Made by a program: the position numbers and the translations under genes. Below are positions 1,865 to 63,800 of a stretch of 64,000 nucleotides of DNA, piece by piece; the stretch's first letter is position 1, and each line of letters begins with the position of its first letter. Under the pieces are notes generated by a model. The model had not been told where the DNA came from, did not search any database, and was given only the letters and a program-made list of their open reading frames with translations. The DNA comes from Physcomitrium patens (taxonomy: Eukaryota; Streptophyta; Bryopsida; Funariales; Funariaceae), in the NCBI RefSeq assembly GCF_000002425.4, contig NC_037261.1, positions 7,616,701 to 7,680,700 of the forward strand, in the 5' to 3' direction.

Positions 1865-2143
1865 TCAATGGTCAATCCAAACAACCACTGGCTTCTTCAA
1901 TAGATAGTGTCGCCACACCTTTGTGGCATGTACAATTACTAATTGATCTTGATTACATATAAAGTAATTGTGCTGTATCCTTCTAAGCTTACATGATTCA
2001 TATGCCACAATTTGAAGGCCCCTACTAAAGACTTCTTGAAGGACTGCTCCGATAACAAAGTTGGAAGTACCAATTTCAAGTATATAAAAAAGATTGAGAT
2101 CACATTGTTGTAATATTGGAGTAGTAACGAGTGTCTCCTTCAA
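1865..2143 (-). pseudogene. RNase H domain of element I
   Basis: A 92-codon minus-strand open segment reads L-V-T-T-P-I-L-Q-Q-C-D, then S-N-F-V-I-G-A-V-L-Q, then H-Y-L-L-K-K-P-V-V-V and W-I-D-H. These are the landmarks of the RNase H that follows the reverse transcriptase in Ty3/gypsy pol (standard APVLQ-PD, DASxxAIGAVL, HYLLGKPF-V-R-T-D-H). The first catalytic Asp of D-A-S is replaced (G-T-S), so this segment is inactive as written. Confidence 0.85.
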
Positions 2144-2199
2144 CCTATCAAAGGCACTTTTTTGCTCCAGTTTCCATTCAAATGAAACATCTTTCTCTT

Positions 2200-10849: not shown

Positions 10850-11600
10850 ACAAAATGTAAACATCTTGCCAAATCATTGTCCTTACGATTATATAATTGA
10901 CCTTCAAGAAGGTACTCAATGACTGTTTGGATCCATCTACAATTTATTCCAGAATAAGCTTACAACTTTAAAAGAGTACATTGATGAAAATTTGGCTAAG
11001 AATTTTATTTGACAATCCAAGTTGCTAGTTGGTGCTCTGATATTATTTATAAAGAAAAAAGATGGATCTTTACAAATGTATGCAAATTATTGTAGTCTTA
11101 ATAAAATCACGATAAAAAATTGATATCCATTGCAATAGATATCTAAACTTTTTGATCAACTTAGCCAAAAAAAGATCTTTATAAACATTGATTAATAAGG
11201 CATATATAACTTGGTACACAGTAAGGAGAGAGATGAATGAAAGACATCATTTCACACCAAGTATGGACATTTTGAATACAATGTCATGCCTTTTAGACTT
11301 ATCAATGCACCAGCTATATTCCAGCACTTAATGAATGATATATTTTGTGAGCATCTCAATAATTTTCTTGTGATCTATTTAAATGATATTCTAATCTTTT
11401 TTAAAAATTTGAAAGACCACAAAAAATATGTTCGCCTTATGTTGAAAAAGCTACAAAATACTAGACTATATGCAAAACTAAAAAAGTGTATATTTCATGC
11501 ACCTCAAGTCAAATTTTTTGAATATATTATTTCCAAAAAAAGCCTTTTTATGGGTCCAAAGAAGGTACAAGCAATCATTGATTAAGCAAAGCCAAAAAAT
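10850..11600 (+). pseudogene. Element II reverse transcriptase
   Basis: Readable motifs in order are [21 protein letters not shown], then Y-N-V-M-P-F-R-L-I-N-A-P-A-I-F-Q, then V-I-Y-L-N-D-I-L-I-F. The last is the Y-x-D-D catalytic box with the first Asp changed to Asn, a single G-to-A change. L-K-K-C-I-F-H-A and V-K-F-F-E-Y close the thumb. The stretch 11,286-11,585 is open; upstream there are several stops. Position and motif set are those of Ty3/gypsy pol. Confidence 0.85.
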
Positions 11601-15749: not shown

Positions 15750-17038
15750 TGTCGTGTTGTAACTTGAGTATACCGTGAAAATATAAAGAAAGGGGACTTT
15801 TATTAATGCTCAGTTACCTCGAATATTGGGAGCAACAACCAACTCCAGTGCAAATATTGAGTGGCCAGGTTCAGTCACCCCGTTACAGTCAGCCGGGGCA
15901 TACTGAAATGCTCCGTTCGATTCCAATAACGGGAGTCAGCAGGAAGGAAAAGGACCAATTCACACGACGGATGAGCCTGGTTTGAAGAGCCAATTGGATC
16001 TAATTTCAAGAATCGAATCCGGGTCCTCTTACCCAATATGAGACCTGAATTGGTCCGGCAACCCAATGCAGTCTAATTACAGGAAAATCCAGGTCTTACT
16101 ACGGGCCTCAGCCAATCTGACGTAAAGGACCAATGTGATCCAATTACGGGAACATCCGGGTCTTACTATTGGACTCTTAACCAATATGAGACCTGAATTG
16201 GTTGGGCGACTCAATGTGGTCCCGATTGCGGGGTTTGGATTTTGTTTCAGGCTGTCCTATTCTCTGTGTCGTTTCAGGGAACGTTGTTTTTGGTAAATGG
16301 ATCTCTTAAAGGTAAAAACGGAGGAGAAAGCTCTGACGGCGAGAGCCAATTTTGGATCTAAGCCTTGATGGCGAGAGCCAATTCTGGATCCAAGCCGGAA
16401 GATTGAGGAAATTCAGAATTAAGGTTAAGAAATGAGAGTGAAGAGGAAGTTTGGGATTTATAGTTTTTTTTGGGAAGTTTTTTTTGAAGGATCGGGGAGA
16501 GCTAGCTTCATGCTTCGGGCGGGGAAAGAAGTCAGAGAATTGGGTTTTTTTTTCTTCACAGGATTTTGGGAAGACTGAGGCAATCGTTGCTGAAGTCAGT
16601 GTTGTAATGGTGAATCGGGATTTTTTAATGAAGTGGGTTTGATTACTCTTGACTGTTTTGTGAAATCGAGTTATGTCTGTGATTGAAGAATTAAAAGGAT
16701 GTCTATAGGATTGAGTATGCAGAGTGAATGAAATTTATTGGATTAATCTAACAAGACAATCAGTGGATACAAGATCGTAAGTACAAAGCGGTATCGAAGA
16801 TTAACAGTTTGGGTTGTTCGGGGTTCTCTGTAATGTCTAGAGACCTACCGGCTGGGGCAAAAAGGACTTTGACAAGCAGTCGAGGGGCATCCGTATAGAT
16901 TTACGGTGTATTCTTGCAGTTGTTTGTATTCCAACAGTCAATAACCGATAAACTGCTTGAATATTGGCGAATCTCCATACTACCTTCTACAGCCAGACGC
17001 CCAGCGCGTTCTCGAGCAGGAAAGCACGTAATATGACA
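15750..17038 (+). mobile_element. Element IV 5' LTR (1289 bp)
   Basis: Starts TGTCGTGTTGTAACTTGAG, ends GCACGTAATATGACA. It is the same length as the 3' LTR (20,403-21,691) and nearly identical to it by eye, with scattered mostly transition differences. It shares only its first and last several tens of bases with the element III LTR. The middle is unrelated and lacks the telomere-like array. An open frame at 16,451-16,642 is inside it and is not a gene. Confidence 0.9.
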
Positions 17039-17042
17039 AAAG

Positions 17043-17059
17043 TGGTGTATCCGATGTAA
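17043..17059 (+). promoter_or_regulatory. Primer-binding site of element IV
   Basis: TGGTGTATCCGATGTAA, four bases after the LTR end, is the counterpart of the site at 14,865. The tRNA is not assigned. Confidence 0.6.
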
Positions 17060-17142
17060 AAGCTTGAGGTGGAAGGTATTGGATTTCATTTGATTTTATC
17101 TTTATTTTATGGAAAACGAAAATAAAAAATTTTGAAGGATTT

Positions 17143-18570
17143 TTGGGAGGAGTTTCTGGTGGGGATTCTTCTAAAGGACAAGGTATGCACATGGATCCGT
17201 CTATTGCTAGTATGTTTCAAGCCTTCTCATTATCAATGCAGCAACAGCAAAGCAATGATCGAATGAAAGCTTTGGCAACTAAAGCATTGCAAGCAGTGGT
17301 CAATAAAATTGATCAATTTGATGGGAAGAATATTTCAAGGTATTTAAGATGTTATATTCGTGAAATGGAATTAAATCGGGTTTCTGAGAAGAAAATGGTT
17401 GAACTATTTGGACTTGCCACGATACCGGAGATAAGAGACCATATTACATCGATTACGGATCGTTATGAAGATTCATGGGAGATTTTTTTACATGCATTGA
17501 AAGACAAATATTTCTTGGAAGATGCTCATCGCGTTACGAAGAAGCTGTTTCAAGAATAGATTGAACGGCCCAATAAGAATTTGCAAGCAATAGAGCTACT
17601 AAGGGAATTTGAGCGGCAGTACTCTCAATTGTCGAAGGTAGAAAAATTGACATTACAGCCGAACAAAGTTGATCTATTTCTTCAAGCTGCTGATGGAGAA
17701 TTGCAAGGGAAATTAGAACTCCTTCTTGAAGACAAAGAAGAAGATGAAGGATTGACAACAAAGTGGAAGAATGTTAAAGATGCGGTGGGGTTGCTTACAA
17801 AAAGAGAAAGGAAGAAGGATAGGAGCAATATTCCAAAAAGAGTACAAGCACCCAAAGCTCCAGTACGTACAACACCACCAACAATGCCTACAGTTCAACC
17901 TTCGACATCCTTATCAAAGAAAGCAGATATGGGAATGGAAGAAATTATACGAGGAATGCGAGATCTTCAAATCAAATTGGCAAGACTTGAAGAGAATACT
18001 TCTACAAAGAATTTGAAGAATGTTTCAAAACAAGGATATGTACAAAGATGCATTTGGTGTGATGATGCTTCACACACTAGAAAAGATTGCAATGAATTTA
18101 ATAATATGATACGGCAGGGAATTATTTGCTGGAAAGATGGAAAGATAGCATTGAAAGATAGAGATGATCTTCTTCAAACCAATTTTGGCAAGGGAGGAAT
18201 GAGAGCATTGGTTCAAGATTACCTAAAAGAGTATGAAACAGCAGCACGAGAAAGTGCAAGTTATGGTGCTAGAGTAGATGATGAAATTGGTGGAAGTACG
18301 AAAACTAGTGAATTTTGGGCTTCTGCCATTTCTACAATACAAGAAGAGAAATTACCTCGAGAAGTGTTATTGAGGACTGCAGCTACAATACGAGGTAGAA
18401 CAGGTTGAGAGGATCCTATTGAGTCTCTTTCAGTTCATGCATATATTGCTAAGAGCCAACATGAAGCTTTGATGGAAGAAAAGAGACGAGGAAATTTTGA
18501 TGATACTAAAGAAGGAAATTCTTCTAAGAGGCAAACTTGAGGAGACAAGGCTCGAGAGGCAGCTTCACAA
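17143..18570 (+). pseudogene. Element IV gag (part of a gag-protease frame)
   Basis: One reading frame runs from about 17,143 to 19,482 and is interrupted only by TAG at 17,557, TGA at 18,406 and TGA at 18,538, each explicable as one C-to-T/G-to-A change from Trp or Arg codons. The capsid-like region holds L-L-R-E-F-E-R-Q-Y-S-Q-L-S. It is followed by a basic, Pro-rich linker and an intact zinc knuckle C-I-W-C-D-D-A-S-H-T-R-K-D-C (CX2CX4HX4C) near 18,050-18,092. The true start is unclear, since no ATG opens the frame cleanly; the ATG at 17,110 meets a stop in its own frame. Confidence 0.75.
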
Positions 18571-18573
18571 GAA

Positions 18574-19482
18574 TTGCATGTAAAGGATACCTCAGCATCA
18601 TTGGGAGAAAAAACAAAGGAGATAAAAGATAAGGGCAAATCAATTGCTTATAAGCTACTTTTTGACATTGAAGCGGCAACAAATTTGAAAGGGGTGTTGG
18701 AAGAACATATATTAAATGCTAAGGTCGAATTCACATTAAAAGAAGTTTTGGGAATTGCAAAGAAAGAGTTTCATGATGTTATCATTGACAGCATTAAGCG
18801 AAAGAGGCAATTAATGGGCGAAACTGGAATGAATCATGCTATTGATGCAAGAATATATAGAGATGAAGAAGAGGTTGGTATTGGTTACAAGCAACCAACA
18901 AATGAAAAGAATGGGTATAATCAACGAGTATGTTTCGAAGATTCTAGTGACAAAGAAATGGAAACTTTGAGCCATTATATTCGAAAGCATTGGGCAAGGG
19001 CAACTACTGAGGTATTGGTGAAAGTAGGAGATATAGAAGAACCAATAGTTGCTTTAGTCGACCATGGTTCTGAAATAAATCTCATGTCTAAAGATCTTTA
19101 TAAGAAGCAAAAATGGCCAATTGATATAGAACATGGATGGGCAATTCGAGCAGCTAATAACACACAGGGCGAATTATATGGAGCTTGTCCAGATGTCAAA
19201 ATTCGGATTGGGGATGTTGCGACGGAGCAACATTTCTTTGTTCAAGATACAACGTCTTATCTGTTGATTTTAGGACAACCTTATATTGCGGCAGCATGGA
19301 TGGAAACAAAAGTACTGGACGATGGTTCTGCTTATGCAAGGGTACGTAGTGAGGATGGGAGGAAAGCTGCACAATTTCTAACAGTACCTCCCAACCATGA
19401 ACGGAATCGAGATAGGTTGAGGGAGAAACCATTGCCAAAGATTGTTGAAGGATTTAAGGATTTTGGGGAGGTACCACTGTAA
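18574..19482 (+). pseudogene. Element IV aspartic protease region
   Basis: A 302-codon open segment in the gag frame. After a Lys/Glu-rich stretch the retropepsin fold is readable: V-L-V-K-V-G-D, A-L-V-D-H-G-S-E-I-N-L-M-S, then Q-H-F-F-V-Q-D and L-I-L-G-Q-P-Y-I. Retropepsins normally have D-S/T-G at the catalytic site; here it is D-H-G. The His may be a lineage feature rather than damage, because the surrounding fold is intact. The frame ends in TAA at 19,480-19,482. Confidence 0.75.
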
Positions 19483-19565
19483 AGCGAGATTATGGAGGCA
19501 CAAAAGAGGAGGTACTCTCGTGAGATGAAGGTGCCTTTGATGCGAGTTTTATTGGTATATTGGAG
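19469..19565 (+). repeat. Single copy of the GAGGTAC-purine unit in element IV
   Basis: The segment reads GAGGTACCACTGTAAAGCGA, then ACAAAAGAGGAGGTACTC, then GTGCCTTTGATGCGAGTTTT. It is the single-copy counterpart of the unit present four times in element III (22,724-23,190). Its purine run resembles an internal polypurine tract. Confidence 0.6.
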
Positions 19566-19942
19566 AATGGAAATATTATGTATAAAAAAGTTGATGATTT
19601 TAAAAGAAAAGAAAGAAAAAGATTATATGATATTGAAGGAAAATTACGCAAGTTAGGTACATTGTAAGATGATGAGAGGATTTTAGGTGTTTATGAAGAA
19701 AATGGACTGGAAGATTCATTAGAATTGATTACATCTATTAGGTTAGGGGATAATGATAAGATTATTGAGATTCATTCAAGAGAGGTTTATACCATACTTG
19801 AATCTTTTCAAGCACCAGAAGTCACTGTAGAGACGAGATATAAAACGGCAGATAAGAAGGTAAGCCTGTTGCTGGACCATTACCAGAAGATTCTAAAGAA
19901 CAAATAGGAGAAGCATCAAAAGAAGCAAGTTTAAGAGATCCA

Positions 19943-20290
19943 ATGAGTATTGGACATCAGTTTACTAGAGAAACTTTTGAAGAATTGAAGATTGGTTCTG
20001 ATGGTTCTTTATTGCCGGAGGAAATTACTTGCTTCAAAAAGATGTTGGCTAAACAAGATAGATCGTTTGCTTTCAAATCTCATGAAATTGGGTGTGTGGA
20101 TCGAAATATTGTAACACCTATGGTTATCTTCACTGTACCACATGTACCTTAGAATCTAAGACCGATTTCAATACCAAGGGCACATTTACCTAAATTGGTT
20201 GAGCTATTAAAAAAAAAGATAAAGATGAAAATATTGGAACCCTCGTTTGCACCGTATTCTAGTCGATGGTTTACAGTACCTAAGAACTCG
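19943..20290 (+). pseudogene. Element IV reverse transcriptase, N-terminal stub
   Basis: The frame opens M-S-I-G-H-Q-F-T and reads V-I-F-T-V-P-H-V-P, a stop (TAG, from Trp TGG by one change), then L-R-P-I-S-I-P-R-A-H-L-P-K and K-I-L-E-P-S-F-A-P-Y-S-S-R-W-F-T-V-P-K. This is the part just before the reverse transcriptase palm. The coding then breaks off into short ACTCGACAAAG direct repeats. No catalytic Y-x-D-D, RNase H or integrase follows before the 3' LTR at 20,403, so most of pol is deleted. Confidence 0.75.
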
Positions 20291-20384
20291 ACAAACTCGA
20301 CAAAGACGAACTCGACAAAGACGTAGAGGATATATTTTAAATCAAACAGCAATTGGATAAATTGGTGCATACCGGAGGATGCAC

Positions 20385-20402
20385 AGGTTCAGAGGAGGTG
20401 GA
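20385..20402 (+). promoter_or_regulatory. Polypurine tract of element IV
   Basis: GGTTCAGAGGAGGTGGA lies directly before the 3' LTR start at 20,403. It matches GTTCAGAGGGGATGGA of element III at the same position. This is the plus-strand priming site. Confidence 0.75.
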
Positions 20403-21691
20403 TGTCGTGTTGTAACATGAGTATACCGTGAAGATATAAAGAAAGGGGACTTTTATTAATATTCAGTTACCTCGAATATTGGGAGCAACAACCAACTCCA
20501 GTGCAAATATTGAGTGGCCAAGTTCAGTCACCCCGTTACAGTCAGTCGGGGCATACTGAAATGCTCCGTTTGATTCTAATAACGGGAGTCAGCAGGAAGG
20601 GAAAGGACCAATTCACACGACGGGTGAGCCTGGTTCGAAGAACCAATTGGATCCAATTTCAAGAATCTAATCCGGATCCTCTTACCCAATATGAGACCTG
20701 AATTGGTCCGACAATCCAATGCAGTCTAATTACGGAAAAATCCAGGTCTTACTACGGGCCTCAGCCAATCTGACGCGAAGGACCAATGTGATCCAATTAC
20801 GGGAACATCCGGGTCTTACTACTGGACTCTTAGCCAATATGAGACCTGAATTGGTCGGGCGACTCAATGTGGTCCCAATTGCGGGGTTTGGATTTTGTTT
20901 CAGGCTGTCCTATTCTCTGTGCCGTTTCAGGGAACGTTATTTTCGGTAAATGGATCTCTTAAAGGTAAAAATGGAAGAGAAAGCTCTGATGGCGAGAGCC
21001 AATTTTGGATCTAAGCCTTGATGGCGAGAGCCAATTCCGGATCCAAGATGGAGAATTGAGGAAATTCAGATTTAAGGTTAAGAAATGAGAGGGAAGAGGA
21101 AGTTTGGGATTTATAGTTTTTTTTGGGAAGTTTTTTTTGAAGGATCGGGGAAAGCTAGCTTCATGCTTCGGGCGGGGAAAGAAGACAGAGAATTGGGTTT
21201 TTTTTTCTTCATAGGGTTTTGGGAAGACTGAGGCAATCGTTGCTGAAGTCAGTGTTGTAATAGTAAATCGAGATTTTTTAATGAAGTGGGTTTGATTACT
21301 CTTGACTGTTTTGTGAAATCGAGTTACGTCTGTGATTGAAGAATTAAAAGGATGTCTATAGGATTGAGTATGCGGAGTAAATGAAATTTATTGGGTTAAT
21401 CTAACAAGACAGTGAGTGGATACAAGATCGTAAGTACAAAGCAGTATCGAAGATTAACAGCTTGGGTTGTTTGAGGTTCTCTGTAATGTCTAGAGACCTA
21501 CCGGCTGGGGCAAAAAAGACTTTGACAAGCAGTCGAAGGGCATCCATATAGATTTACGGTGTATTCTTGCAGTTGTTTGTATTCCAATAGTCAATAACCG
21601 ATAAACTGCTTGAATATTGGCGAATCTCCATACTACCTTCTACAGCCAGACGCCCGGCGCGTTCTCGAGCAGAAAAGCACGTAATACGATA
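20403..21691 (+). mobile_element. Element IV 3' LTR (1289 bp)
   Basis: Pairs with 15,750-17,038 over its full length. The end is ACGATA for ACGACA, one C-to-T change. GCAG follows as the target duplication (21,692-21,695). Confidence 0.9.
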
Positions 21692-22615
21692 GCAGTTGGA
21701 AGCTATGGCTATTCTATATTGAATAAGTTTGTGCAAGTTGGTGATGGCAATTTGGATGAAAAATCTCTCGATAATAAAAAGGTATTTTCTACATTTGAAA
21801 GAAGTAAGGATGTTTTGCCTAATACTTTGAATTATGTTGAAGAATTTAAGGTTGAACCTTTACAAAAAATGGATTATGAATCCATTGAAGGTTATAATCA
21901 TGAAGATTGTATGAATTCACAACATTATGATGTGAGAAGTGGTGGGATTATGCATGGATCTGATGATGAAAGTCAAATTGCATATGGCTATGAGACCACA
22001 TATGAATTGGGTGAAAGAAGTTATGAGTTTCCACATGAAGAGGGTTATGTAATTGCACAAGCTTATGATACTAAATGTGGTTGTGAAACCACAAAGGATT
22101 ATTTTGAAAGTTATGAGACTTTTCAAGAGCATGAGATTTCAAAAGGGCATGAGAATTTTCAATATTATGAGGTTATACAATGCTTTGAGACAACAAAAGA
22201 TTATGATGTTTCAGAAGGATGTATTCAAGAAGATATGAAGGATGTTATACAAGATTATGTCGCAAATAAAGATTATGGGATAAAAGATAAGGATGCTAAG
22301 TCATTGACTATGATTAAGTTAATTATGAGTACTTCACTTTTGGACCAAGGTCAAACTTACATAGATAATGTACATGTAATGGGAACACAATTGGATTTTG
22401 ACAAAGATAAGATTCATCATGAAGTATGGAATTCAAGGGTTGAAAATCTAAAAAACTTCAAATATAATGACATGGAAAATGGATTTAAAGATTACATGGA
22501 CATCTTAAATGGGACTTGGAATCAAAGAAATAAGAAAAACGATACAAGGAAGATGTATGTAGCTATGAGGAAGAGGTTTCAATTCAATCTTTTCATTTCA
22601 AATTTTGTACATTAA
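21692..22615 (+). CDS. Element III Tyr/Glu-rich ORF (unknown function)
   Basis: An open frame continuing that of 15,668-15,749 after removal of element IV. It is about 300 residues with no stop until TAA at 22,613. It is rich in Tyr, Glu, Asp and Lys with a loose repetition of Y-E-x-x and x-x-T-T-K-D-Y blocks (Y-E-T-T-Y-E-L-G-E, F-E-T-T-K-D-Y-D-V-S-E-G). I recognise no polymerase, protease or integrase motif. It occupies the place where pol would be. The open frame extends upstream into the element IV LTR (from 21,617), but those 25 codons are not part of the protein. It could be a low-complexity passenger or a fast-evolving accessory ORF. Confidence 0.5.
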   Translation, partial: AVGSYGYSILNKFVQVGDGNLDEKSLDNKKVFSTFERSKDVLPNTLNYVEEFKVEPLQKMDYESIEGYNHEDCMNSQHYDVRSGGIMHGSDDESQIAYGYETTYELGERSYEFPHEEGYVIAQAYDTKCGCETTKDYFESYETFQEHEISKGHENFQYYEVIQCFETTKDYDVSEGCIQEDMKDVIQDYVANKDYGIKDKDAKSLTMIKLIMSTSLLDQGQTYIDNVHVMGTQLDFDKDKIHHEVWNSRVENLKNFKYNDMENGFKDYMDILNGTWNQRNKKNDTRKMYVAMRKRFQFNLFISNFVH

Positions 22616-22723
22616 CAATGGTTTGGTCATGTGCAAAGGAGGATATTTGCAAAGTACTTGCACATGTGGAATAAATGAAAACATTGGCATTAAAAAAAAT
22701 AATAAAATAATAATAATAATAAT

Positions 22724-22814
22724 TAGAGAAGTATCATTGTAAAGCAAGACTATGGTGGTATTAAAAGGGAGGTACATTTATAAGATATAGATGCCTTTGA
22801 TTTAAGTTTTCTTA

Positions 22815-22853
<39 letters not shown>

Positions 22854-23190
22854 AGAGAAGTATCATTGTAAAGCAAGACTATGGAGGTATAAAAAGGGAG
22901 GTATATTTACAAGATATAGATGCCTTTGATTTAAGTTTTCTTGAAAAAAAAAAAAAAAAAACAAAAAAAAAAACAAATTAGAGAAGTATCATTGTAAAGC
23001 AAGACTATGGAGGTTTAAAAAGAGAGGTACATTTACAAGATATAGATGCCTTTGATTTAAGTTTTCTTGAAAACAAAAAGAATAAAATAAAAGAAAATTG
23101 GAGAAGTATCATTGTAAAGCAAGACTATGGAGGTATAAAAAGGGAGGTACTCTTATAAGATATAGATGCCTTTAATTTAATTTTTATTGG
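22724..23190 (+). repeat. Four tandem units with A-tracts in element III
   Basis: Four copies, starting near 22,724, 22,853, 22,979 and 23,099, of a roughly 90-bp unit (AGAAGTATCATTGTAAAGCA, then AAAGGGAGGTAC, then GATGCCTTTGATTTAAGTTT). Most are separated by A-rich runs, the longest about 34 bases at 22,817-22,850. Element IV has one copy (19,469-19,565). Confidence 0.85.
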
Positions 23191-23536
23191 CAAAAAAATA
23201 TATATATATATATTGAAAAAGAATTATTTGAGTTGACAACATTAAAAGATGATGAAAGATTTTTGATATTTATCAAGAAAATAGATTGGAAGTTTCTTGG
23301 AAAAAATTACATATATTCGATTAAAGGATGATGGCAATGGAAGCAAGTGAAGTTACTCAAACAAAAGCAAACATAAATAAATATAGAAGACTTTGTTAAA
23401 GACATAAATCTTTTAAGACAACAAGATGATTTTGATTTGAATAGTGAATATAAAGAAGAAGAATTGGATGAAGACATTGAAAATATTGTATCAATAAAAC
23501 AAAGTTGGATTATTTGGTGCATACCACAGGATGCAC
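23191..23536 (+). pseudogene. Element III 3' internal remnant
   Basis: Homologous to 19,630-19,720 and 20,340-20,385 of element IV (AAAGATGATGAAAGATTTTTG; TTGGTGCATACC...GGATGCACAAG). It contains short open pieces rich in Asp/Glu/Lys but no recognisable domain. The reverse transcriptase stub seen in element IV is not recognisable here. Confidence 0.5.
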
Positions 23537-38989: not shown

Positions 38990-40279
38990 TTACTGGACGT
39001 TGATAAGTGTAGCTTCCCTCCAGATAAGAGTTTTCACATGCTCAACTGTTAGGCTGGGAAGGTAAGCATCGAAGTCGAACATAAGATGACACGTTGGCTC
39101 ATCACTTAGGTCGTGAAGCGCTGCCAAGTAAGGATGGGCCAAGGCCTCTTCCGCAGTTATTCTGTTGGATGGGTTAAACCTCAGCATCTTCTCCGCTAAG
39201 TCACAAGCTATTGCAGACGTTTGAGGAAACCTCGAAAACAAAGGCTTCCTTTCCTGACCTAACAAAGCCATTTGGATTCTTTGCCGAGCATCTGGATTCT
39301 GCAGAAACGACAGGTCCGAAGCATCGGGTGTTCCTAGAAGCTCCGTGATGAGTTTCAAATGATTCACGGGATGCTCTTGCCTTGACCGGATTGGAAACAA
39401 AGGTTGTCCTGTAAGCATCTCCATGAAGATGCAGCCCACTGACCACATATCAACAGCCGCTGTGTACATTCGGCTCCCAAGCAAGAGCTCTGGAGCTCGA
39501 TATGGTCGAGTAACAACATACTCCGTAAGGAAGTCATCCTCTGCAGATGTTCGAGCCAAGCCAAAATCACAAATCTTGAGTAGACAGTCGTTGCAATTGA
39601 TGAGGAGATTACTGGGCTTCAGGTCACGGTGCAATATATTGGCAGAGTGGATGTATTTGAGACCCCTCAACAGCTGGTAAAGCAGGAACTGGCAATGGTA
39701 TTCGTCAAGTTTTGTTGACCTCACTATCTGGTGAAGGTCTGTATCCATGAGCTCATTTGCGATATAGGCATCATGAAAGTCCTCAATGTTAGCAGGCACA
39801 ATGATATCTCTGATGGGAATGATGTTGTCGTGTTCAGTATGGCGGAGCAACAAAATCTCTCTAAGTGTGCGCCTCGCTGTAGTATTGTTCTGAAATGCGT
39901 TTCCAATCTTCTTTATGGCCACTTTCTCCCCTGTCTCCCTGTTCGTGAAAGCACACACATCGCCATAAGCTCCATGACCAATGGGACCAATCATTACATA
40001 CTTGTCGTAGACTTCAAACTTGTCGCCCCTCACATTGTACTGTGTGTACTTCATTCCTTGTAGGGTGTTTGGCACGCTCTCGATCCGTGACTCACATTCT
40101 GTATCAGGACGTGAGTCATCCAAAACCTGATCCTCTGCGTCAACTGTCTGGCAGCTTGCTTCTCCAGCGCTCTCTTCACGTGATTCACAATCCATGTCCC
40201 CTTGCCGTTCCTCTACAACGGCTGTGTACTCCACATCGAAAGTTTTACAAAGAATCTCGTATTTCATCTCTGTGACAGT
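38990..40279 (-). CDS. MPK: Exon 7: NAA40 C-terminus, linker and complete MAP kinase
   Basis: Acceptor TTACTTCAG before 40,279. Residues 1-15 ([15 protein letters not shown]) are the NAA40 C-terminus. Residues 16-75 form an acidic linker. Residues 76-429 are a MAP kinase: G-H-G-A-Y-G loop (101-106), V-A-I-K-K (120-124), H-R-D-L-K-P-S-N (218-225), D-F-G (238-240), T-E-Y activation motif (252-254), A-P-E (262-264), and an L-H-D-x-x-D-E-P-x-C docking site (388-397). The P+1 loop reads T-R-P-Y-R where MAP kinases have T-R-W-Y-R. There are no introns, whereas plant MPK genes of this type normally have several. An open frame continues upstream into the intron to 40,390, but that part (37 codons, no initiating ATG at its end) is intronic. 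An internal ATG at 40,054 (M-K-Y-T-Q-Y-N-V) could start a free kinase. Confidence 0.9.
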
Positions 40280-41638
40280 CTGAAGTAACGCAAACCAAAA
40301 CTTCAAGATAAGCTCCATGCGACAAATAAGTCGATCGACCGCAAAGAAAAGTGCTTGGTTTTCAAACATGAAACTGGGCTGTAAGTCCAAAAATACATTT
40401 CAAATACTGATGCAGGTTACAAGAGTTCACTTACTTGTGTGCTTTGTTGACTTGATGCTGATCTAATTGCCAACTTATACCTATAACAGAGGATAATGCA
40501 CACGGTGAACAAAACATCCAGGCAAAAAGAACTCTTACAAGTAACAACCATGAAAAATACACAAGGTGGTTTTGATGCAAGTTTCGCTCGACTTACCCTA
40601 AACGTTCATTGTAAAAGGTTAGCGCCCTTGTGTTTCTTTTATGCACAGCTAAAAGTACTGCTTTCATGTTGTTCTGCTCAGGAACAATCAAGGTCGTGTC
40701 AGAGAATAAGTGCAAAGGAACAAAATACTGCAGCGAACTAAGGTTGGAAATTCATCTAAACCAATTTTCACCTAAAATGTGTACGATAGAGACTCGGGGT
40801 GGAAGCAGACCTTTCGTGCAACCAACTCAAGTAACTGCATTAAAAACTTTCCAAGACCTTTCCCTTGCACTGTTTTCTCCAGCTGTGTCTCATATATATA
40901 AAGTACTGGAACCTCGTGTTCCAAACCGAATCTAAAATGGACGAAGCCCACCATTGGGTGACCTTCATCAGAACTGCCCGCTTCAATGGTAGGAGTGCTT
41001 TTCCTCACAAAAATGAAGCGCGCTTCAGGGGATACCATTTCCCACCGCTTCATGTTCTCTTCAGCAGGCCATTCATGGGGACCAAATAACACTTCCATAT
41101 TCATCTGTTCTGCATAAAAGGTAACTGTGGTGAGGACGAGGCATTGATACTTGGCCCAATCCAATAATGTTAAATAATTTGCCATCTGTGGCAACAAGAA
41201 GCACATCGCCTTTCAAAGCATGAGTTGTGTGGATGAAGCCTGACCATTAAAAGTTTATGCATACTTTCTTTCGTAGTAGCAGACAGAGCTGCGCCAGACC
41301 CAGCTTCCAAGTTCAGTTTTAAACCTGAACCACTAACACTCAATGTCAAAAATAAATACTGTATGAATGATACAGCACTGAGGCATTCATTGCCAGCACT
41401 TCTGGGTACCTACTTCAATGTATGCTCCAAAGAGGTAACCGCGAAGTGTTCGTGCAACATCAAGATGAATTTTGTGGAATGTTCTAAAAAGCTACGATGT
41501 TTCAATTGCATGAGGTAGACCGAAGATAGTGTTGCAAGACTCACCATTTCGATTGTAAATGAGAAACGAAGGGAACTCCGCTATAGGGTCTGGCTTGGCA
41601 GCGGCAGCTCTAACAGCCTTTTCAGCCTCTGGAAACTC
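38990..41638 (-). CDS. NAA40: N-alpha-acetyltransferase 40 (NatD) fused to a MAP kinase
   Basis: Six exons are supported: 41,638-41,545; 41,324-41,265; 41,124-40,811; 40,673-40,597; 40,480-40,435; 40,279-38,990. All have GT donors and AG acceptors, and their phases agree throughout: 1881 nt, 626 codons plus stop. The first coding exon, with the start Met, is not identified. Exons 2-6 and the start of exon 7 encode a GNAT acetyltransferase of the NAA40 type, which in yeast and human acetylates the N-termini of histones H4 and H2A. Exon 7 then runs in frame through an acidic linker into a full TEY-type MAP kinase. The gene predicts one protein with both activities. Alternatives are separate translation of the kinase from an internal ATG, alternative polyadenylation, or an assembly artefact. 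NAA40 identity and in-frame continuity are strong; expression is unknown. Confidence 0.85.
40435..40480 (-). CDS. NAA40: NAA40 exon 6
   Basis: Acceptor CTGTTATAG, donor GTAAGTG. Forty-six nucleotides encode [16 protein letters not shown], matching the L-x-Y-x-I-S-S-x-S-P-S segment of plant NAA40. Ends in phase 0, as exon 7 requires. Confidence 0.85.
40597..40673 (-). CDS. NAA40: NAA40 exon 5
   Basis: Acceptor CTGAGCAG, donor GTAAGT. Encodes [25 protein letters not shown], the GNAT motif B region (M-x-x-V-x-L-T-V-x-K-x-N-x-x-A-x-x-F-Y). Ends in phase 2. Confidence 0.9.
40811..41124 (-). CDS. NAA40: NAA40 exon 4 (GNAT core)
   Basis: Encodes [47 protein letters not shown], then [13 protein letters not shown]. 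The last is the Q-x-x-G-x-G acetyl-CoA-binding motif A of the GNAT fold. An in-phase alternative acceptor at TATGCAG would start the exon at 41,109 and drop five residues. Donor GTCTGC follows the Lys codon at 40,811. Confidence 0.9.
41265..41324 (-). CDS. NAA40: NAA40 exon 3
   Basis: Acceptor GTTCAG, donor GTATGC. Encodes [20 protein letters not shown] and completes the N-R-N-G junction of exon 2. The donor was chosen because it alone gives phase 1 for exon 4, so this end is less certain than the others. Confidence 0.65.
41545..41638 (-). CDS. NAA40: NAA40 exon 2
   Basis: Acceptor ATCAG before 41,638, donor GTGAGT after 41,545. Encodes [19 protein letters not shown] and I-Y-N-R-N, which corresponds to the D-P-L-x-x-F-P-x-F-x-x-Y-D-R-N-G segment near the N-terminus of NAA40 proteins. 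Ends in phase 1 with the G of the following Gly codon. Confidence 0.8.
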
Positions 41639-42699
41639 CTGATTTCAACAACACGTCAAATGTATCCACGTTCAGTAACTTGTATGGAAGAAAGCCAAGA
41701 GAGACCGCTCTAGAAAACTCAGTCAAAGTAAGAAACCTTCCACCGTCCAACTGGGAACCCCAGATCGACAGACACCTCAGCCATGAAACCAATTTGAAAG
41801 AGACTTGGTTCAATTCTTCCAAGCAAAGAACACCGGACTGGAACCCACATTGCTGTCGCCAATTACTGGCCGATGATTTCGATGAAGCCATACTTAGGAC
41901 GTTTAAAGGGAAAATATAATTTGGAGTCAGGTGCGCAATTCAATGGAATCACGAGAAAAAGGGGAAGAAGTTTGAAACCAAGTCCCGGGTCAACGATCTC
42001 TCAACAAAACCATCACACCTTCTTCAAACGGAAATTTCTCACCGAAAAACTCGGGATCGTTACTACTCAGCCATGTCCTACTCTCCCAGGGCACCATAGA
42101 TCGAAGACGACTAATTATCTCCCCCACCGACAAAACGTCCAACCTCAAACCACTCTCACCCCCCCAATAGTCATCTCCTCTCTTCAGCACAAAAAGAATC
42201 CTCTAGCATTCATCGAAGTCCAACACTGCAAATGGCCACCCCAATCAACAACAAAAACCTCGCTCCTCCTCCTCCTCATCCTCCTCCTCCCTCTCTCTCT
42301 CTCTCACTCCATCTCTCATCGTGCTTAGCAACCATTCACTCAACAACGCACCCACACCAAAAAAAGCAAACACTCCAGGGAAATAACTCACATCTCGCGC
42401 ACCCAGGAGCTTCTTCTCCCTGGTACTCCCCTCGCCAGAGTCATAATGCTTGTGCCTATCCATGCCTGCCACCTTTTCTGATCGCTGATGCTCCGCAGCC
42501 TGAGCGGTCTGTCTAGTTTTCCCCAACTGGCTCCCTCCAGATCACAAACAGCACAGCAAGCGCCGCTAACACCCACACTCCCCTACAAGGAGGACGTGCA
42601 GATCTACGCGACTCCAGCACTCACTCAGCCCAGACAGACAGACAGACAGACAGACACTGCGAGCTCGAACACGACGAGGGTTTTGTGCAACGGTTGAAA
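41639..42699 (-). promoter_or_regulatory. Upstream region and probable first exon of the fusion gene
   Basis: GC-rich and CpG-rich compared with its surroundings. It contains a (CCT)n/(CT)n run at 42,260-42,308 and a (CAGA)n run at 42,631-42,655. Several short frames overlap on both strands. One minus-strand ATG at about 41,891 (M-A-S-S-K-S-S-A-S) might start NAA40, but I cannot find a donor joining it in phase 0 to exon 2. The first exon is therefore open. The region probably holds the promoter. Confidence 0.45.
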
Positions 42700-62780: not shown

Positions 62781-63800
62781 TACCACAATGGTTCTACTAG
62801 TGGTGAATTTGGCCACGAGAGTAAATGTCTCATTAAAATCAACACCAACAACTTATGAGTAGCCTTTGGCAACCAATCTTGCCAATTATCTCATAACATT
62901 GTCCATTGCATCCCTCTTTGTTCTAAATATCCACTTAAAACCAATTGAAGCTTGATTTAGTGGAAGTTGAGTCAATTTCTATGTTCTATTGTTGATGAGA
63001 GATTGTTACTCTGTTTTTATGGCTTTCTCTTACTTCAAAGCATCTATGGACTTTATTGCATCATCCAAACTCAACAGATTAGTAAGAAGTATAACATTGA
63101 CATGTTCTTCACTTAATTGAAGAAAAATATGATTCTTCCACTATTTACCACATTGTTTTTTATTTCTCAAAGAATATCTCCTTTCATTTGAAGAAGACTC
63201 AATTTGTTGTATTGTGGTCTTTTTCAACCTTCTTTTCTTTTGTAGATAATCTTTTCTCATTCAAAGATTGATAATCCTCATCACCATCATTATCAACATC
63301 TTCATGCTCTTCATTGCTTGTCTTACCATTTTTAAAGGCCTTTTTTTCCACCTTCTTTGCTTCTTCATCTTCATTTCTTCTTTTACAACCATCATTGTCT
63401 TTATCTTCTTCTTTCTTTGCTGAATTTAAAGATGTGTCTAGAAATATATTATTACTCCCACTTAGACACATCTCTAAGTGCTCACAATTACTCTTGTGCT
63501 CCAAAAACTCAACATCACGACTTTTGATGATTTTTTTGGTCTCCAAACACATCAGCCCATAAGCCTTTGTATCTTCACAATATCCAACAAACATACATTT
63601 TGTACTTTTTGCATTAAATTTTGATCTCATATAAATTGGTGTCTTTTCATATTATTTGCATCTAAAAGTCTTCATGAAGAATATAAGGTTTCTTCCCATT
63701 CCAAGCTTCTTCGAGAATTTTTGACATTAGTGCATGTTGTTCTCGTTGTATTCAAGCTTCAGTATATCAAAACAATTGAACTAATAGAGGTGGGTTCAAA
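62781..63800 (-). pseudogene. Ty1/copia integrase end and start of reverse transcriptase
   Basis: Minus strand reads E-A-W-N-G-K-K-P, then K-S-T-K-C-M-F-V-G-Y-C-E-D-T-K-A-Y-G-L and K-I-I-K-S-R-D-V-E-F-L-E, the domain after copia integrase. An acidic Glu/Lys/Asp-rich linker follows (63,199-63,480). Then come G-C-K-W-I-F-R-T-K-R-D-A and A-R-L-V-A-K-G-Y-S, V-D-F-N-E-T-F, the opening of the reverse transcriptase. This joins almost directly to RNase H at about 62,780, so most of the polymerase domain is deleted. Confidence 0.85.

Follow-up and report, generated by a model that had tools for sequence, protein, structure and literature searches.

Can the N-terminal acetyltransferase NatD (NAA40) and a mitogen-activated protein kinase (MAPK) be parts of one and the same protein? 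This question is raised by a locus of the moss Physcomitrium patens. It lies on the minus strand of a 64,000-nucleotide stretch of contig NC_037261.1 (hereafter the window; C9:7616701-7680700 in our numbering), where a reading of the letters alone (the sequence-only reading) had proposed an in-frame NatD-MAPK fusion gene at 38990..41638. Exons 2-7 are indeed found in this interval, with the compatible phases and GT-AG borders that had been described. However, the gene is longer, as exon 1 (Table 1) adds the start codon. The complete model (model B, 42463-38990) spans 3474 nt of genomic DNA, comprises seven exons and six introns, and encodes 650 amino acids followed by one terminal stop. A second model (model A, 645 amino acids) deviates from it at the exon 3/4 border alone; we set this junction at 41245/41104, in agreement with the database protein P0001 described below. 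As the sequence-only reading had claimed, exon 7 continues without a stop from the conserved NAA40 end (YEILCKTFD, 40261-40235, minus strand) via a 60-residue linker into a MAPK, where VAIKK, HRD, DFG and TEY are present. Pfam profiles recognised both halves within one protein (model A): GNAT (PF00583) with 39.8 bits (cut-off 20.7) and Pkinase (PF00069) with 225.6 bits.

For evidence of a fused product, we turned to protein records. A search limited to about the length of the fusion and scored on the NatD-plus-linker part matched 10 proteins among 3490 candidates. GNAT and kinase domains occur together in four of them: P0001 (the window gene), P0003 (a copy on contig C15), P0002 (Ceratodon purpureus) and P0004. 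The remaining six (P0005-P0010) are NatD-containing models, P0005 and P0008 without a second listed domain and the rest with other domains. P0001 equals the 650-residue model letter for letter; ahead of it stands a 21-residue leader whose window counterpart opens with an in-frame TTG. It is a protein predicted on assembled contigs (six members, 40 contigs), the longest of which measures 2664 nt versus the 3474 nt of the gene. No intronless NatD copy was found in a NatD search of the genome (seven matches at three loci). Because the contigs are shorter than the intron-bearing gene span and no intronless copy turned up, P0001 appears to stem from spliced RNA. We infer from this predicted protein that a spliced fused RNA exists.

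A second copy is present elsewhere in the P. patens genome (470.4 Mb, 101 contigs). Among the 103 matches of a linker-kinase query (588 candidates, 100 scored), the second-best is located on C15, is 93% identical over the query and contains no stop. When rebuilt, this copy has the same seven exons and encodes 648 amino acids, the last 566 of which equal P0003, that is RefSeq XP_024396997.1 'MAPK 4b-like isoform X3 [Physcomitrium patens]'. XP_024396997.1 starts with 48 residues that deviate from exons 1-3 common to the C15 copy (C15:7741478-7745075) and the window gene; they are either a misprediction or an alternative form. Intron 3 (41105-41244) shows 68% identity between the paralogues over all columns, versus 22-53% for the other five introns, possibly reflecting an alternative exon 3/4 border. 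The junction is not unique: it recurs in a second intact P. patens copy and in homologous fusions elsewhere, e.g. in Ceratodon purpureus.

From the two paralogues on C9 and C15 we estimated the ratio of non-synonymous to synonymous substitution rates (dN/dS) for each part of the gene, by the Nei-Gojobori method with 300 codon bootstraps. It was 0.031 (0.014-0.052) for the kinase, 0.160 (0.061-0.329) for the linker and 0.332 (0.201-0.539) for the NatD core. The linker is protein-coding and under constraint, as a working fusion predicts. The first 47 codons (0.727, 0.323-1.832) are the sole part not distinguishable from neutral. Within the NatD core (amino acids 84-232), the C9 fusion agrees with that of Ceratodon at 121 of 149 residues, and the stand-alone proteins of both species agree at 119 of 149; the C15 core evolves faster (101/148 versus the Ceratodon fusion). 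A decaying retrocopy is rejected for the kinase by its dN/dS of 0.031 and is unlikely for the NatD core.

Could the fusion nevertheless be an artefact of assembly or gene prediction? Some NatD models do carry unrelated domains (P0006 and P0007, with ubiquitin-conjugating or acyltransferase domains). Yet here the NatD end, the linker and the kinase lie in one unbroken exon on two contigs, P0001 is identical to the model, more than one moss carries the arrangement, and codon constraint is strong. Since independent fusion copies exclude misassembly and chance, and a merger of gene models is likewise ruled out, the chance of an artefact is negligible. The in-frame NatD-MAPK fusion gene proposed earlier is borne out: P0001 is identical to its translation, C15 holds a paralogue, Ceratodon carries a fusion as well, and the linker is under purifying selection. 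The gene almost certainly gives a single transcript with a single open reading frame (ORF), as far as sequences can tell.

Another possibility is that the kinase is the sole functional part and is made mostly from a shorter transcript with its start in exon 7 or ahead of it; the NatD exons would then be a decaying leader of a host gene. That the kinase is far more constrained than the NatD core would fit this scenario. So would the Met at the kinase start (M297), kept in 5/5 fusion records, which could serve a kinase-only transcript or an internal start. But the dN/dS values of linker and NatD core are well below 1, and P0001 probably represents the full-length fused product of a spliced RNA. 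Moreover, upstream of M297 the spliced ORF contains 23 ATGs when all frames and the start codon itself are counted; they make leaky scanning unlikely but are no argument against an internal promoter. Intron 6, with a paralogue conservation of 0.52, is no better conserved than introns 1, 2 and 4 (0.51-0.53). We therefore regard such hitch-hiking of the kinase as quite improbable.

The fusion is not confined to P. patens. Fused NatDs form one clade (100/100), which is joined to moss NAA40s at 93/87, 97/88 and 95/87 in three trees. Fused kinases likewise form one clade (99/99, and 90/99 in a second tree calculated without the four long rows P0017, P0018, P0024 and P0063), and over the kinase the four fusions are 92-97% identical to one another. 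According to NCBI taxonomy, Ceratodon belongs to the Dicranidae, Physcomitrium to the Funariidae and Sphagnum to the Sphagnopsida. The sequences show that the fusion has persisted from the last ancestor shared by Physcomitrium and Ceratodon, if not for longer. Nearest to the fused kinases are P0011, P0012, P0013 and P0014 of Sphagnum magellanicum, in weakly supported order. P0011 begins with MIFILPC, followed by QTGAVTNYDILCK (the NatD C-terminus) and a linker homologous to that of the fusions (two comparisons, each with 0/500 shuffles scoring as well). Judged from the amino acids alone, MIFILPC would be a translated intron tail, and we interpret P0011 as the exon 7 product of the same fusion in another moss. 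In the records of P0012 and P0014, the kinase is preceded by a short separate N-terminus (MLEAEV and MLENEV, respectively) instead of NatD. Thus P0014 (CY35_13G028300), a 385-residue record protein, shares the divergent clade and 293 of 354 kinase residues with the fusion kinase but differs in its N-terminal part. When a NAA40 duplication before the Sphagnum split was compared with one after it, the approximately unbiased (AU) test gave p 0.224. A further genome record, P0235 (173 amino acids, ena, on a 224779-base contig), holds a NatD exon 4 of the fusion type, with 71% identity across 44% of the query.

How did the two genes become one? The genome holds three NAA40 loci, the fusions on C9 and C15 and a stand-alone gene on C17. 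The latter has six introns at places matching or nearly matching those of the fusion gene. One of its exons ends with SILE followed by the donor GTAAAT; where this donor stands, the fusion reads AVVEERQGD..., so that the linker occupies the corresponding place. The stand-alone record protein P0129 goes on with DGN after SILE, which implies a further small exon on C17. No kinase was detected in the 6-kb stretch searched around this gene. Given the matching introns and the read-through at the C17 donor site, the NatD part would derive from a DNA-level duplicate, with the kinase joined where the donor was lost. In this scenario, the intron-containing NAA40 gene would have been duplicated, a splice donor close to the 3' end of the duplicate would have disappeared, and read-through would then have reached the coding sequence of a MAPK that lacked introns and had already diverged. 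An origin of the linker from the N-terminal extension of a stand-alone kinase was not shown by comparison of four linkers with three extensions: for the best three pairs, 10, 11 and 20 of 500 shuffles were as good, for the other nine at least 127 of 500. A weak signal remains.

The best PDB match of the NatD half is NAA40 (9rg7, E 1.2e-25, sequence search with model A); this entry and 4u9w presumably represent the human protein. The fusion shares with stand-alone NAA40 the GNAT domain, most active-site residues, the places of introns and the YEILCKTFD end. Equivalents of human W90, E129, Y136, Y138 and Y211, which we take to be the active-site positions, are kept in 4/4 fusions, as are 50 of the 74 alignment columns in which at least 25 of 27 stand-alones agree and no fusion has a gap. 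The segment VQGKGLGKF in exon 4 is presumably the acetyl-CoA loop motif. Catalysis by the NatD half has probably been retained. In contrast to the stand-alone proteins, the fusion continues via the linker into the kinase and reads LAVHK instead of LTVQK: human position 174 is A in 4/4 fusions versus T in 27/27 stand-alones (T174A), and position 176 is H in 4/4 versus Q in 27/27. Position 127 is G in all four fusions (V, T, L, I or C in stand-alones), and position 85 is F in 4/4 fusions and in 3/27 stand-alones. The clearest loss concerns the basic N-terminal helix, which is largely gone in the four fusions. Their best 17-residue N-terminal net charge is +2, +3, +3 and +1, whereas 26 of the stand-alone plant NAA40s reach +4 to +9; P0194, the remaining one, has no such N-terminal region.

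According to a study on human NatD (PMC12716425), this helix (residues 3-19) sits on 28S rRNA; a helix mutant gave no detectable Förster resonance energy transfer with the ribosome complex, H4 N-terminal acetylation, measured indirectly, was greatly impaired, and the short form of NatD is supposed to act post-translationally. The coupling to nascent chains envisaged by the sequence-only reading is therefore weakened, the rRNA-docking helix being largely lost in the four fusions compared. This also bears on the notion of a straight bifunctional enzyme, in which the NatD half acetylates H4/H2A and the kinase rides along, so that MAPK signalling reaches chromatin or nascent histones. Such an enzyme would agree with the five active-site positions kept in 4/4 fusions and the 50/74 conserved columns, with the NatD core dN/dS of 0.332 and its upper bound of 0.539, and with an identity to Ceratodon that equals that of stand-alone NatD. 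On the other hand, the basic helix is mostly missing, T174A and the Q-to-H change at 176 occur in 4/4 fusions, a stand-alone NAA40 is present in both P. patens and Ceratodon, and no basic nuclear-localisation motif was found in the fusion by two crude patterns. We thus consider this alternative rather unlikely.

The kinase half best matches MAPK 4 (7w5c, E 4.6e-131) when its sequence is searched against PDB. VAIK, HRD, DFG and TEY are intact, and the domain is very likely to be catalytically competent, as predicted from these motifs. Like plant MPK4/MPK6-type MAPKs, it has a whole-length MAPK domain with HRD, DFG, TEY and a segment that we take to be a common-docking (CD) type motif; unlike them, it is intronless, fused to NatD, only 62% identical to MPK4b, and carries a W-to-P exchange and a QEHP insert. 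P replaces W of TRWYRAPE in 11/11 clade members, versus W in 27/27 other MAPKs compared, and QEHP is likewise found in 11/11. This T-R-P-Y clade (the four fusions, P0011-P0014, P0017, P0018 and P0024) is split at 100/100 from the 27 MAPKs, which had been chosen among the best matches, plant groups C, D and E being left out of the tree; the same split was obtained without P0017, P0018, P0024 and P0063. Among the best 20 of the 103 genomic kinase matches, T-R-P-Y occurs in two, both fusions, and T-R-W-Y in seven, while the motif pattern was unmatched in eleven. Names met for members of the clade are generic (serine/threonine protein kinase, hypothetical protein, MPK4b-like) or absent. Although RefSeq labels the C15 fusion 'MPK4b-like', the kinase is not MPK4b itself, which is a separate 380-residue protein (P0036, 62% identical).

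What might the fused protein do? We favour, with a probability of roughly 0.55, a two-domain protein in which a NatD domain put to new use steers or gates an off-ribosome MAPK. Signalling output would come from the constrained kinase once a MAPK kinase has activated it at T-E-Y. The NatD half would no longer dock efficiently on ribosomes and would instead have been repurposed as a module that binds acetyl-CoA and recognises N-termini, targeting or gating the kinase tethered to it; it might still acetylate an altered set of N-termini post-translationally. This specific off-ribosome targeting or gating role of the NatD half we propose tentatively, at somewhat less than even odds. A more elaborate version, with a ribosome-independent NatD domain that senses acetyl-CoA or free N-termini and gates or aims a MAPK with altered substrate choice, seems unlikely.

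Several points weigh against the gated-kinase reading. The fused product is known only from a protein predicted on assembled contigs, and the conserved Met at the kinase start would suit a kinase-only transcript or an internal start. Because the first 47 codons cannot be distinguished from neutral, loss of the N-terminal helix may be drift. NatD conservation between C9 and Ceratodon agrees equally well with ordinary and with repurposed NatD activity. The stem of the fused NatDs is long (0.88), and the first kinase tree carries a long-branch warning. Furthermore, a second report (PMC8037211) describes short NatD as the main co-translational actor and the long form as mainly nuclear. Whichever report holds, the fused form should differ in behaviour from full-length NatD.

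The NatD-MAPK fusion is apparently undescribed. The sequence-only reading knew of no such description, and we found none in titles and abstract openings among the listed open-licence papers on NAA40, MAPK families, Physcomitrella and Ceratodon. The word acetyltransferase is absent from the main text, as far as accessible, of two MAPK surveys including P. patens (PMC4363184, PMC8064577). A precedent is AtMEK3 (MKK3), a plant MAPK-cascade kinase with a fused NTF2-like accessory domain; it is, however, a MAPK kinase and its partner is no acetyltransferase (PMC8064577).

With a conserved and duplicated covalent union of NatD and MAPK in a model moss, cross-talk between N-terminal acetylation and MAPK signalling becomes directly testable. 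Gene targeting is routine in P. patens. MAP kinases usually find their substrates via docking motifs and scaffolds, and N-terminal acetylation and phosphorylation are antagonistic on histone H4 Ser1. NatD is among the most selective acetyltransferases, according to PMC8037211. If the kinase is gated by its NatD partner, the fusion would tie N-terminal acetylation directly and physically to MAPK signalling. The fusion also marks a divergent MAPK clade for which no name was found, and its likely route, splice-donor loss, is readable from the surviving stand-alone gene.

Table 1. Parts of the NatD-MAPK fusion gene and their positions in the window
Feature	Position	Strand	Basis
Exon 1, start codon and N-terminus MDRHKHYDSGEGSTREKKLLGARD, replaces basic helix of stand-alone NAA40	42392..42463	-	P0001 identical; same exon in C15 copy
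Exon 2, NatD domain	41545..41638	-	gene model, P0001, C15 copy
Exon 3, NatD domain, donor GTCAGG	41245..41324	-	donor as in P0001 and C15 copy
Exon 4, NatD GNAT core with VQGKGLGKF	40811..41104	-	gene model, P0001
Exon 5, NatD GNAT core; LAVHK where stand-alone NAA40 has LTVQK	40597..40673	-	gene model, alignment
Exon 6, NatD	40435..40480	-	gene model, P0001
Exon 7, NatD C-terminus, linker, entire MAPK and stop	38990..40279	-	ORF, P0001
Conserved NAA40 C-terminal segment, amino acids 222-236 (first 15 codons of exon 7)	40235..40279	-	alignment
Acidic linker, 60 amino acids (237-296), 18 D/E and 4 K/R	40055..40234	-	composition, paralogue dN/dS 0.16
MAPK domain, amino acids 297-650, intronless, T-R-P-Y clade	38993..40054	-	domain search, alignment
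HRDLKPSN catalytic loop	39608..39631	-	motif read
CDFGLAR (DFG)	39551..39571	-	motif read
TEY activation motif (TEY itself 39518-39526) and P+1 loop, W to P	39488..39526	-	motif read, alignment
QEHP four-residue insert, common to 11 compared clade members	39368..39379	-	alignment
Presumed CD-type motif, 10 residues, intact	39089..39118	-	alignment

Apart from the fusion gene, the window contains traces of mobile elements. Fragments of retrotransposons with RNase H, reverse transcriptase and SH3-like retroviral polymerase domains are located at 1868-2197 (minus strand), 11241-11582 (plus strand) and 63202-63651 (minus strand). A direct repeat (15750-16049 and 20403-20702, 4653 bases apart, 95% identical) encloses ORFs, two of which we scanned: one matches DUF4100 below the cut-off, and no polymerase was detected in either. 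The element at 15750-20702 is perhaps a retrotransposon with terminal repeats. Just downstream of an ORF at 21614-22612, four tandem copies with a spacing of 120-129 bases occupy 22692-23217, the later ones being 77-90% like the first.

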